Source of the DNA: Enchytraeus crypticus
Taxonomy: Eukaryota > Annelida > Clitellata > Enchytraeida > Enchytraeidae
DNA length: 64,000 nucleotides
NCBI GenBank assembly: GCA_905160935.1
Contig: CAJHZI010000641.1
Span: forward strand, 642,501 to 706,500
Reading direction: 5' to 3'
The first letter of the stretch is position 1; every line of letters starts with the position of its first letter. A model generated the notes under the pieces. That model was not told the origin of the DNA. It ran no database searches and was given only the letters and a program-made list of their open reading frames with translations. A program made the position numbers and the translations under genes. This document shows, piece after piece, positions 5,054 through 42,493 of the stretch.

Positions 5054-5168
5054 ATGGCTGATTGGATACATTGCAATTCTTGCTATATACAGCCAGGTGT
5101 TACTAACGTATCGTTTGTACTAACCACCTGTGGACATCTTACTTGTGATGTGTGTCAGAAATCTAAAG
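5054..5168 (+). CDS. RNF212B: RNF212B-like exon 1 (first half of the RING)
   Basis: This exon encodes MADWIHCNSCYIQPG and LTTCGHLTCDVCQKS, giving six of the eight RING zinc ligands (C7, C10, C26, H28, C31, C34). The donor AAAG|gtttgt leaves phase 1. An in-frame upstream ATG at 4964 would add 30 residues, but family members start immediately before the D/A-W-x-x-C-N-x-C motif, so 5054 is preferred. Confidence 0.85.
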
Positions 5169-42200: not shown

Positions 42201-42493
42201 AAACGAAACCTCTATTCAGTTTCTGCAGCCCCATGGAAAACAAGAACTCAACTCAGGACTCTGACAGTGCTTCCGGTTTCACTCTATTCCATTTTGGACG
42301 AGATCTTGTAGATGATGATGATGATGCGGACAAAGCTGAGAAGGGAGAAGAAAATTCGATGATGTTCTCGTTTGGATTTTCATCCTCAAACGAAGCGGAA
42401 TCAGCGAAAAGTGAGAGCAACTTTTTGTTCTTCGGTTCAGCTGATTCCAGTGATGATACGAGGGGCGCTGAGCAATCTTTCAAGTTCTTTTGA
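24291..42493 (+). CDS. SIX6OS1: SIX6OS1 (C14orf39)-like synaptonemal-complex protein, 11 exons, about 800 aa
   Basis: Exons: 24291-24342, 25674-25730, 26198-26324, 26991-27080, 27945-28129, 36539 to about 36862-36906, about 37571-37597 to 38230, 39039-39405, 39825-39982, 40840-40888, 42159-42493. All phases fit except that the exon 6 donor and exon 7 acceptor are ambiguous: 36906 with 37571 (phase 0) or 36862 with 37590 (phase 1). The N-terminal half is coiled coil (MADSGTLDHLTRLIHELNFE). Exon 5 has Y-rich RYLGHLSLYKSRYEDYEAVY, KQRPLYVQLSERQ, which matches in spacing a Y...Y..YK...Y...P segment I recall in vertebrate SIX6OS1. The C terminus has Phe-rich motifs (LFSF, LFHFG, MFSFGF, FLFFG, FKFF) also seen at the SIX6OS1 C terminus. 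SIX6OS1 is a central-element component needed for synapsis. Length exceeds the roughly 590 aa vertebrate protein because of Gln-rich exons 6-7. The gene structure is strong; the orthology call is recollection-based. Confidence 0.65.
24365..24540 (+). repeat. Family 3 repeat copy in SIX6OS1-like intron 1
   Basis: ATCATCATCTTCTCTTGAAT, CTCAGTTTAGCTAGGTACGG, TTTCTAGAGCCTAGGCGCTC and GGATCTTAGGGCTTTGTCTC match the family 3 copies elsewhere. Confidence 0.65.
25145..25545 (+). repeat. Family 4 repeat, longest copy
   Basis: GAGCACTCCTTAGATCAACA, GTTAATCCCTTCACAAAGTC, GGTGGTTTCCCGTTGCCTTC, TTAGTCGCCTCTTACTTAAA and CACAACACGGGAAAAAC appear in order. The last two blocks are shared with the tail of family 3 (45465-45535), so the two families share a 3' end. 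Confidence 0.7.
27748..27960. repeat. About 65-bp tandem repeat that runs into SIX6OS1-like exon 5
   Basis: Three degenerate units of CTACCTCAGTCACTGATTTA...CATTGATTGACTGATCATAT..TGATTGAAG. The following sequence, GGTACCTCGGTCACCTG, is the start of exon 5 and resembles the start of the unit, so the exon edge is itself a repeat edge. The resulting acceptor (gaagagagag|GTAC) lacks a polypyrimidine tract. Confidence 0.7.
27945..28129 (+). CDS. SIX6OS1: SIX6OS1-like exon 5, Tyr-rich block and charged coiled coil
   Basis: Encodes YLGHLSLYKSRYEDYEAVYK, QRPLYVQLSERQREMREW and a Glu/Arg/Gln-rich helix ending SRQIEEKRK. Phase 2 in, phase 1 out at AAGA|gtaaga. It joins in phase across the 8.4-kb transposon-loaded intron to MKVETMRYQREYEMQEKCNQ in exon 6, giving one continuous heptad-like helix. 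Confidence 0.75.
28130..30532. other. Left part of SIX6OS1-like intron 5
   Basis: AT-rich intron sequence without recognisable exons. It contains a 60-70 bp dispersed duplication (29203-29280 and 29341-29400, GGAAATGTGTAGTAATGGAT, TTTGGACAGATTTTCTGGAT) and a (TA)n tract at 29870-29968. Confidence 0.5.
31034..31079. repeat. 21-bp inverted repeat with 4-nt loop before LINE ORF1
   Basis: The arms CCTATATATTAGGTACGTTTA (31034-31054) and its reverse complement (31059-31079) differ at one position; the loop is TAAT. It ends 22 bp before the ORF1 ATG. Confidence 0.85.
31102..32236 (+). pseudogene. LINE ORF1 (RRM-like nucleic-acid-binding protein), one frameshift
   Basis: Begins MTDTTCVTVNELLCFVSKNV and reads RRVTENKRKLDAEDILDAWM, then shifts frame between about 31410 and 31440 and continues VPPTRFTEKDICELSAMIFE. 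The C-terminal part (AIFVRRLEKETTTDDIMELL, WPENSVIREWW) resembles the RRM-like or esterase-free ORF1 tail common in CR1/Jockey-type LINEs. The original protein would be about 375 aa. Confidence 0.7.
32263..35450 (+). pseudogene. LINE ORF2 (endonuclease and reverse transcriptase), broken
   Basis: The endonuclease starts MAINIATFNMHGFNNG, with QEHW, ILGDTNFEL and NHSDHRPV motifs. The reverse transcriptase shows NNYRGITLIALISKLFE, LQFGFK, IDLKKAFDKVNH (motif A), SGVRQGSSLSPALFNIFI (motif B), YADDLLLIS (motif C) and FKYLGITF. Lesions: TGA at 32647-32649; a one-base gain in the T run near 32856; a frame change near 33690; a 160-bp duplication placing a YADD copy before motif A (34222-34383); and an ATCT gain near 34800 compared with the other copy. 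Confidence 0.85.
36285..36475. repeat. GGTTCGG subterminal array (right end of hAT-like element)
   Basis: Irregular repeats of GGTTCGG, GGTCTGGGTTCGGGTTCGGC and AGTTCGGTTCGGT for 190 bp. They are in the same orientation as the shorter array at 30560-30715 at the left end of the same element. Confidence 0.8.
36539..36906 (+). CDS. SIX6OS1: SIX6OS1-like exon 6, Gln-rich
   Basis: The acceptor gcttcag|TGAAGG gives phase 1, making codon A|TG with exon 5. It encodes MKVETMRYQREYEMQEKCNQ, then a tract rich in CAA/CAG (NQQQQQHQPQAQRQ, QQEQQQEELPQE, QQDEQQQQLTTT). The donor is uncertain: 36906 (AAA|gttgga, phase 0) or 36862 (GAGA|gtagtt, phase 1). The open frame begins upstream at 36493, but the strong coding signal begins at the acceptor. 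Confidence 0.65.
36970..37065 (+). repeat. (AAT)n plus family 5 repeat fragment
   Basis: An AATAATAAT run at 36970-37001, then GGGGTTTAACATCCGTTTCC and TTATGTCAGGGACGTATG, match the start of the copy at 63785-63835. Confidence 0.55.
37130..37580. repeat. Degenerate ATTGATTG-containing minisatellite before SIX6OS1-like exon 7
   Basis: Repeated blocks of TTGATTGATTG plus TATACACGTAGATGACAAGA, with diverged forms down to GCACGTAGACGGTAAGCT, right at the exon 7 acceptor region. A GA-rich run sits at 37280-37305. The repeat makes the exact acceptor uncertain. Confidence 0.7.
37597..38230 (+). CDS. SIX6OS1: SIX6OS1-like exon 7, Ser/Asp then Gln-rich
   Basis: Encodes SDVTDEFKRPLGLPPTSRFA, an acidic stretch SFSDNDVSSDDEMIVDD, and a Gln/Leu/Glu-rich C part (LRQLRQGQQQLEQLNHNKEQ and a duplicated QELSAEQ). 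The 3' end uses CCTGAG|gtgaac at 38230 (phase 0). The 5' end may be 37571, 37590 or 37597; the choice changes at most nine residues. Confidence 0.65.
38375..38505 (+). repeat. tRNA-derived SINE (Ser/Leu-like head)
   Basis: The A-box-like TGGTCGAGTGGAT and the B box GGTTCGAATCCC lie 44 bp apart in a tRNA-like head, followed by a body ending GCGTTAAGCTTTGCTTT. It is too irregular, and without paired acceptor-stem ends, to be a tRNA gene. It lies in intron 7 of the SIX6OS1-like gene. Confidence 0.6.
38905..39025. repeat. About 61-bp direct duplication before SIX6OS1-like exon 8
   Basis: Two copies of GAYATAGAAGATATAATTKT followed by AGCAGYATCTTAATYTAGTT and TCYTGTSTACTAT. The second copy ends about 15 bp before the exon 8 acceptor (atatatag|ATGG). 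Confidence 0.85.
39039..39405 (+). CDS. SIX6OS1: SIX6OS1-like exon 8
   Basis: Starts in phase 0 with MEPIKQNSDFAQKTTDMT; ends DMFYDAVEALSPESSANFFQ, PQDKAD in phase 1 at GATG|gtaagt. It is rich in Ser, Asn and acidic residues and has no recognised domain. Its ATG is internal to the transcript by phase, but it could serve as an alternative start. Confidence 0.7.
39419..39705. repeat. About 26-bp minisatellite, roughly 11 copies
   Basis: Tandem GTGTCGTGTGCTTGAATGTC plus TGCAGT units starting 13 bp after the exon 8 donor and ending just before the duplicated exon 9 acceptor. The His/Thr/Gln-rich minus-strand frames here are translations of this array. Confidence 0.95.
39705..39870. repeat. 104-bp-spaced duplication of the SIX6OS1-like exon 9 acceptor
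   Basis: ATGATCTTGTACAG|AGAAGG occurs at 39709-39727 and again at 39812-39830, with similarity continuing through GTAGGATYRGAGRCAGRTAAC. The first copy reads EKAVGLEADNKSYEI then TGA, so only the second is a usable exon start. Confidence 0.9.
39825..39982 (+). CDS. SIX6OS1: SIX6OS1-like exon 9
   Basis: Phase 1 in, phase 0 out at GTG|gtgaga. Encodes EKEVGSETGNKSSPAGNAPA, APMFNNELSTLLSAASSDVS, GFKPNWMFDCESV. No known domain was recognised. Confidence 0.75.
40435..40680 (+). repeat. Family 4 repeat copy in SIX6OS1-like intron 9
   Basis: TTCTGCCAAGCGGCAGGTCC, AGTTAATCCCTTCGCAAAAG, CATACCTTATGTAGCCCATG and GGCTTCTGAGGTGGTTTC match the other family 4 copies. Confidence 0.7.
40840..40888 (+). CDS. 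SIX6OS1: SIX6OS1-like exon 10 (49 nt)
   Basis: A strong polypyrimidine acceptor (ttgttgttcttttttag) is followed by KSKNHSNRSNVFQTYF, with the donor TTTTG|gttagt. Phase 0 in and phase 1 out, which is exactly what exons 9 and 11 require. Confidence 0.65.
41640..41760. repeat. GAGTATATATMTGA tandem tract
   Basis: Alternating GAGTATATATATGA and GAGTATATATCTGA units, in intron 10 of the SIX6OS1-like gene. Confidence 0.85.
41770..41925 (+). repeat. SINE family 1, 5'-truncated copy
   Basis: GATCTGAGAGTAAAATCTCG, GACATTCACTGGACTGGCTA and GTGATAGATATCAACGTAGT match the body and tail of 20640-20785. The tRNA-like head is missing. Confidence 0.7.
42159..42493 (+). CDS. SIX6OS1: SIX6OS1-like terminal coding exon 11 with Phe-rich motifs
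   Basis: Phase 1 in (G|GG GAC). Encodes an acidic/Ser-rich C terminus with five spaced Phe-rich motifs: KPLFSFCSP, GFTLFHFGRD, MMFSFGFSS, NFLFFGSAD and the final SFKFF-stop (TGA 42491-42493). Candidate poly(A) signals AATAAA lie at 42771 and 42977. Confidence 0.75.

Follow-up and report, generated by a model that had tools for sequence, protein, structure and literature searches.

The 64,000-nucleotide stretch of the Enchytraeus crypticus genome analysed here (the window; positions 642501-706500 of contig C546, in an assembly of 524 Mb and 802 contigs) carries two multi-exon genes in head-to-tail order on the plus strand. Their exon chains were assembled by hand from splice sites and reading phases with an ad hoc splice score, and the models are based on DNA only. 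Gene 1, which is RNF212-like, has 13 exons at window positions 5054-17463 and encodes 380 amino acids, with a frame that is open over every junction. Gene 2, which is SIX6OS1-like, has 10 exons, begins with an ATG at 24291, ends with a stop codon at 42493, and encodes 710 amino acids. An earlier note on this DNA had described a same-strand pair of multi-exon genes about 6.8 kb apart; both genes could be read where the note had placed them, and the stop of gene 1 lies 6,827 bp from the start of gene 2. In the following, we address the identity of the two genes and the meaning of their adjacency.

The start codon of gene 1 and the first half of a RING domain lie in exon 1 (5054-5168), and the second half of the RING lies in exon 2 (6365-6426), which ends in a GC donor. 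Exon 3 (7317-7391) is followed by exon 4 (7767-7823), which holds an IEFQ..HR segment common to human RNF212, by exon 5 (8292-8359), and by the coiled-coil-like exon 6 (9080-9230). The chain continues through exon 7 (10145-10218) and exon 8 (12417-12462) to exon 9 (13171-13357), which carries a GITSPQD segment, and then through exons 10 (14557-14688), 11 (15499-15529), and 12 (16458-16537) to exon 13 (17399-17463), where the stop is found. The junctions least supported by the splice score are two donors, the GC one of exon 2 and that of exon 7 (-5.6). An in-frame ATG 20 codons upstream of 5054 offers an alternative start. Both ends of exon 9 fall within local tandem duplications (13025-13211, 93 bp in 2 copies; 13317-13499, 65 bp in 2.8 copies) that bring additional acceptor-like and donor-like copies, and that may mislead gene prediction or permit alternative splicing. 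A six-frame genome search with the gene 1 model gave 11 matches covering 11 of the 13 exons, above threshold solely at its own locus; therefore, the assembly holds no close second or haplotype copy, within the limit that this search missed a divergent relative on contig C453 that is described below. For both genes, genome searches that use the model itself are circular and are no proof of its exon chain.

Gene 2 begins with exon 1 (24291-24342), which lines up with the beginning of human SIX6OS1; the alignment takes in part of the SYCE1 site-1 segment (residues 10-21). Exons 2 (25674-25730), 3 (26198-26324), and 4 (26991-27080) lead to exon 5 (27939-28129), whose YK-Y-Y-P segment falls in the block that BLASTP aligns best with human SIX6OS1. 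After a long intron, exons 6 (36539-36676), 7 (37590-38230), 8 (39039-39405), and 9 (39825-39982) precede exon 10 (42182-42493), which encodes a phenylalanine-rich tail with the end FKFF and the stop. Exon 6 has an alternative end at 36765 and exon 7 an alternative start at 37571; with this junction the protein has 746 amino acids, and the alternative sites score slightly better. Several sites of exons 2-4 are modest and the exon 6 acceptor scores -0.9, and overall the junctions of exons 6, 7, and 10 are the weakest. As the last acceptor, 42182 (-0.4) was preferred to 42159, which scores higher (3.2) but does not keep the phase. Three candidates for an additional exon between exons 9 and 10 were considered, none of which was convincing. 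In a six-frame genome search, all 8 matches of this model above threshold were at its own locus; therefore, no close second or haplotype copy of gene 2 is present in the assembly either. Intron 5 contains a repeat insertion of about 6 kb (30530-36485). It is bounded by AGAGATGGGAAT in inverted orientation, carries GGTTCG-rich repeats at either end, and includes a reverse-transcriptase frame (RVT_1 at 34223-34834); five other frames tested inside the insertion had no Pfam match.

The human RNF212, RNF212B, HEI10, and SIX6OS1 sequences used for comparison were working versions rather than database copies. Gene 1 matched Pfam zf-RING_5 with 31.7 bits (cut-off 27.9) at residues 6-48, and exon 1 alone reached 30.8 bits in a genome RING search; coiled-coil families matched too, below their Pfam cut-offs. 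The first 176 residues aligned with human RNF212 at a score of 258 (53 of 135 positions identical, z 40.2) and with RNF212B at 192 (47 of 144 identical), and in neither case did any of 500 shuffles reach the score; the two human proteins score 182 with each other. HEI10 gave a score of 59 (z 5.1), and although it also beats all 500 shuffles, gene 1 was ruled out as HEI10 by this score, compared with the 258 of RNF212. The C-terminal part of gene 1 had no significant alignment with any of the three (RNF212, RNF212B, and HEI10 were reached by 15, 186, and 17 of 500 shuffles, respectively); with the C-terminal alignments not significant, SPQD in exon 9 still resembles SPPQD, which we take to be the human RNF212 sequence. 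A PDB sequence search with the N-terminal part gave a best E of 0.04, with HEI10/CCNB1IP1 at E 4.2, and NCBIfam matches were far under their cut-offs. Gene 1 shares with the RNF212/RNF212B/Zip3 family an N-terminal RING of the zf-RING_5 type, a W..CN.C start, the IEFQ..HR segment, and a coiled-coil-like stretch after it. According to the available part of PMC10133878, proteins of this family have 200-400 amino acids with a conserved N-terminal region of about 120, and RNF212B is without the 17-amino-acid C-terminal motif of RNF212 (Fig. S7 therein).

The earlier note had called gene 1 an RNF212B-like RING gene. Membership of the RNF212 family stands, given the zf-RING_5 match and the RNF212 score, but the sequence lends no support to the name RNF212B, and it is the neighbourhood of the gene that resembles that of RNF212B. 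In the available part of PMC10133878, the duplication into RNF212 and RNF212B is dated to jawed vertebrates, and segmented worms are described as having duplicated the gene independently. Because of this date, and because gene 1 is closer to RNF212, the name RNF212B is too narrow. The mitochondrial contig of the assembly (C802) carries cox1 (Pfam COX1), with neighbouring frames that by eye are nad2 and cox2; the three run nad2, cox1, cox2 on one strand. This order and the COX1 residues probably point to an annelid. Its genetic code is the invertebrate one, with TGA at tryptophan, AGA and AGG at serine, and AAA at lysine positions; such a code is not that of a vertebrate, a tunicate, or an echinoderm. 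The mitochondrial code, the dating of the duplication, and the higher RNF212 score together indicate that gene 1 does not come from the jawed-vertebrate RNF212B copy. From its sequence, gene 1 is predicted to be the annelid member of the RNF212-like genes that is co-orthologous to vertebrate RNF212 and RNF212B.

A second, divergent RNF212-like gene (MEWLHCHICYR..CGHVFCSNCM) was observed on the minus strand of C453:15001-25000, which scored 81 with RNF212B and 76 with gene 1 and is perhaps a worm-specific duplicate. It was the only one that looked RNF212-like among the 14 RING places judged, out of 142 places listed (150 of 255 candidates were scored); the window's own exon was among the other 128. 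The next-best RING place (score 68) was a generic RING by eye. Separately, contig C372 holds 14 of the 150 zf-RING_UBOX matches, mostly in open frames of about 380-400 amino acids, and by eye this cluster looks like a TRIM-type tandem expansion.

For gene 2, we compared the predicted protein with human SIX6OS1 (C14orf39), whose sequence, as used here, matched the whole Pfam S6OS1 profile at 913 bits as a control. Residues 1-172 or 1-230 of gene 2 aligned with human residues 1-240 at a score of 136 (local, BLOSUM45). Globally, residues 1-172 paired with human residues 1-172 from the first methionine onward, and none of 1000 shuffles and none of 1000 local shuffles reached this alignment. The local alignment of residues 1-230 was likewise reached by none of 1000 shuffles and none of 1000 local shuffles with BLOSUM45, and by none and 1 of 1000, respectively, with BLOSUM62. 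A single-pair BLASTP comparison gave E 4e-05. At the other end of the protein, the last 90 residues of gene 2 contain 13 phenylalanines, compared with 18 in the 620 residues elsewhere, and five FxF motifs, compared with none. The tail of the human protein is built alike (13 phenylalanines in 90 residues compared with 22 in 497, and six FxF motifs compared with one) and ends in FTFF. The available part of PMC5095591 describes SIX6OS1 as helical at the N terminus and mostly unstructured beyond it, with patches of conservation near the C-terminal end. In the available part of PMC7467691, SYCE1 binding is assigned to residues 1-67 and to sequence inside 1-262, and gene 2 shows similarity to this SYCE1-binding region, as measured against one human sequence. 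Gene 2 resembles SIX6OS1 in its start-aligned N-terminal region, in the YK.....Y...Y...P block, and in the phenylalanine-rich tail ending in FxFF; it differs in lying below Pfam detection, in its length (710 amino acids compared with 587), in its glutamine-rich middle, and in its position on a contig without a SIX-gene match.

The likeness could also have arisen if gene 2 encodes an unrelated coiled-coil protein, with helical composition and a partner chosen in hindsight producing the alignment, and several results count towards this. Only 15 of 77 positions are identical in the best BLASTP block. Pfam S6OS1 at E up to 10 matched neither the N-terminal 172 residues of gene 2, a longer N-terminal model, exon 7, exon 8, the C-terminal pieces, nor the assembled protein, in searches where the HMMER filters discard most matches above about 0.1. 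The same profile gave no match over the whole genome, where the control genomes were silent too, and when human SIX6OS1 residues 1-234 were searched against the genome, gene 2 was missed and the one place returned lay elsewhere (E 0.73). The C-terminal 120 residues of gene 2 aligned weakly with SIX6OS1, with 69 to 176 of 1000 shuffles reaching the local score, 33 and 36 of 1000 the global score, and 73 and 193 of 2000 when residue classes were preserved. For full-length gene 2, shuffling in 30-residue segments reached the score in 13 of 300 cases with BLOSUM62 and in 1 of 300 with BLOSUM45. Apart from this, PDB sequence searches returned four matches for the N-terminal part of gene 2, at E 0.37 or worse, and none at E 0.01 for human residues 1-234.

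Helical composition was addressed by class-preserving shuffles and by real coiled coils. With residues 1-172, the class-preserving shuffles reached the local score in none of 2000 cases (BLOSUM45) and in 1 of 2000 (BLOSUM62), which argues against a compositional origin, and with residues 1-230 in none (BLOSUM45) and in 11 of 2000 (BLOSUM62), the latter count being in its favour. Among 149 control tiles from fetched loci, none of the 70 that were coil-like by our own composition rule reached the score of gene 2; the best of these (L002) gave 108 compared with 136, which counts towards an unrelated coil, and the 70 tiles overlap and come from few loci, which weakens them as a control. Against these tiles the global BLOSUM45 alignment of gene 2 and SIX6OS1 had a z of 7.06. 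Against an unrelated coiled coil are also the alignment from residue 1 in both proteins, with offset 0 as the best register both ways, and the phenylalanine-rich tail common to the two. We therefore regard an unrelated coiled-coil protein as rather unlikely, and on the pairwise evidence gene 2 is likely a distant SIX6OS1 homologue. The label "SIX6OS1-like" of the earlier note was borne out by the pairwise statistics and the general plan of the protein, but neither by the Pfam profile nor by the genome search with the human protein.

The published range of SIX6OS1 and the search for its partners also weigh against homology. SIX6OS1 has been reported from cartilaginous fish onward in the available part of PMC5095591, and is possibly absent in bony fish according to a partially available account of its distribution. 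In favour of homology, SYCE1 has been placed in Bilateria, and SYCE2 and TEX12 in Metazoa, by Fraune et al. as cited in the available part of PMC4132317. Over the worm genome, Pfam SYCE1 gave nothing above its cut-off of 27, and neither SYCP1 (Pfam SCP-1) nor TEX12 gave any match above cut-off. On inspection, of three weak SYCE1 places (18.0-18.6 bits), one was a coiled-coil-like frame next to a repeat, one a frame containing a stop, and one a coiled coil of great length. In the control genomes, none rang for S6OS1, SYCE1, or SCP-1, and two bacterial controls gave matches below cut-off for TEX12; because the controls did not ring above cut-off, the genome negatives for these four profiles are no proof of absence, and the exon-wise profile search is insensitive enough that partner genes may be missed. 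Among the matches listed in a literature search of titles and abstracts, no invertebrate SIX6OS1 and no such gene adjacency was found; public gene annotations, in which the former may well exist, were outside its scope.

In the regions around the two genes, pieces of an RGK-type GTPase lie upstream on the plus strand at C546:600.6-600.9 and 614.7-615.0 kb. The joined query matched GEM, REM1, RAD, and REM2 best in the PDB (E 3.9e-11), with most of the match falling on the second piece, and the two pieces are probably parts of one gene. A NOX/DUOX-like FAD/NAD-binding domain on the minus strand (C546:602919-603888) seems to lie inside an intron of this GTPase, as a nested gene or a fragment. Downstream, four of six tested pieces at C546:725.5-753.5 kb matched Cadherin, Laminin G, or Ig_Shg, with one just below cut-off. 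The window itself holds the probable start of a classical cadherin on the plus strand at 59878-64000, in which the frame 59878-60420 matched Pfam Cadherin at E 0.076, and the downstream pieces would then belong to one classical cadherin gene starting near 59878. Long open frames on the minus strand intervene between genes 1 and 2 at 21539-22931, and the two of these tested had no Pfam match above cut-off. Near the left end of the window, a minus-strand open frame at 1519-1815, with a signal-peptide-like start and a CxHC motif, is perhaps a first exon; it had no Pfam match at E 0.001.

Human RNF212B presumably lies at 14q11.2, between SLC7A8 and HOMEZ and near REM2 and CDH24, with SIX6OS1, as we take it, at 14q23.1 on the same chromosome. 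The 14q11 cadherin is, on our assumption, a type II cadherin, whereas the cadherin here has an Ig_Shg domain. In the available part of a human 14q11 gene list (PMC5068817), REM2 and CDH24 are named, and the same order is found in the available part of the list in PMC10340279; RNF212B is in neither of these parts. The former part names no NOX/DUOX gene, whereas a NOX/DUOX-like domain is found near the locus here. The worm locus is similar to REM2-CDH24 in having its RNF212-like gene between an RGK GTPase and a classical cadherin. These results suggest that the RNF212-like gene lies in an old neighbourhood that is nearer to that of RNF212B than to that of RNF212, the latter as we assume it to be.

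The same flanks and the presumed position of SIX6OS1 and RNF212B on one human chromosome could mean that genes 1 and 2 form an ancient linked pair, present since early bilaterians, from which vertebrates later moved SIX6OS1 beside SIX6. Human SIX6OS1 has been tied to SIX6 in a published source available in part. However, nothing links SIX6OS1 to the neighbourhood observed here, since none of the 15 SIX1_SD matches in the genome is on C546; in blue tit, moreover, RNF212B and SIX6OS1 of the A chromosomes are on different contigs, according to the available part of PMC10172847. We consider an ancient pair unlikely. A fuller version, in which SIX6OS1 was a bilaterian central-element gene ancestrally coupled to RNF212 in the RGK GTPase-cadherin block, spiralians kept the pair, and vertebrates left the RNF212B half in place while SIX6OS1 moved to the SIX6 locus, appears slightly more doubtful still. 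The 15 SIX1_SD matches are spread over 12 contigs, some with stops; three SIX genes are usual for bilaterians, and the excess would reflect expansion, duplication, or pseudogenes. The blue tit result agrees with the claim of the earlier note that the two genes are not adjacent in vertebrates, and for human the claim stands on positions that we assume. As a separate observation in the same available part of PMC10172847, the blue tit germline-restricted chromosome carries copies of both RNF212B and SIX6OS1, and that of the nightingale carries RNF212B and not SIX6OS1, a curious meeting of these same families.

Shared expression in the germline, within a local co-expression domain, might instead have maintained or favoured the pair, as its common strand, its 6.8 kb spacing, and the meiotic role of both families in mammals (available parts of PMC5095591 and PMC10133878) would allow. 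Yet the genes are arranged head to tail with separate starts and have minus-strand frames between them, and we hold this explanation to be very unlikely. By chance, about 0.4 adjacent pairs are expected for 100 meiotic genes among 25,000, both gene numbers being assumed, and the pair may well have arisen in this way. The simplest reading is that the adjacency is neutral and belongs to this lineage, and the RNF212-like gene may lie in an old RGK GTPase-cadherin neighbourhood. Taken together, we find it fairly probable that gene 1 is RNF212-like, that gene 2 is a distant SIX6OS1 homologue, and that their adjacency is neutral.

From what is known of the two families, the product of gene 1 would most likely be a RING-type SUMO or ubiquitin ligase that accumulates at synapsed recombination sites and chooses among them for crossover. 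The product of gene 2 would most likely be a central-element protein that binds SYCE1 by its N-terminal end, and it would most likely help to assemble the synaptonemal complex. We infer a meiotic function for both genes, and SYCE1 binding for gene 2, from sequence relationships. A SIX6OS1 that probably predates vertebrates is the most valuable of these results. Should gene 2 be homologous to SIX6OS1, its age would agree with the placing of its partner SYCE1 in Bilateria, and a core synapsis protein would be far older than the cartilaginous-fish start reported in the available part of PMC5095591. If true, this would also suggest that absence is in some cases only apparent and due to profiles failing to detect a gene, and how the central element of animals arose could then be tested in worms. 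The adjacency also provides an inexpensive way to ask by synteny whether genes for crossing over and synapsis have ever been linked.

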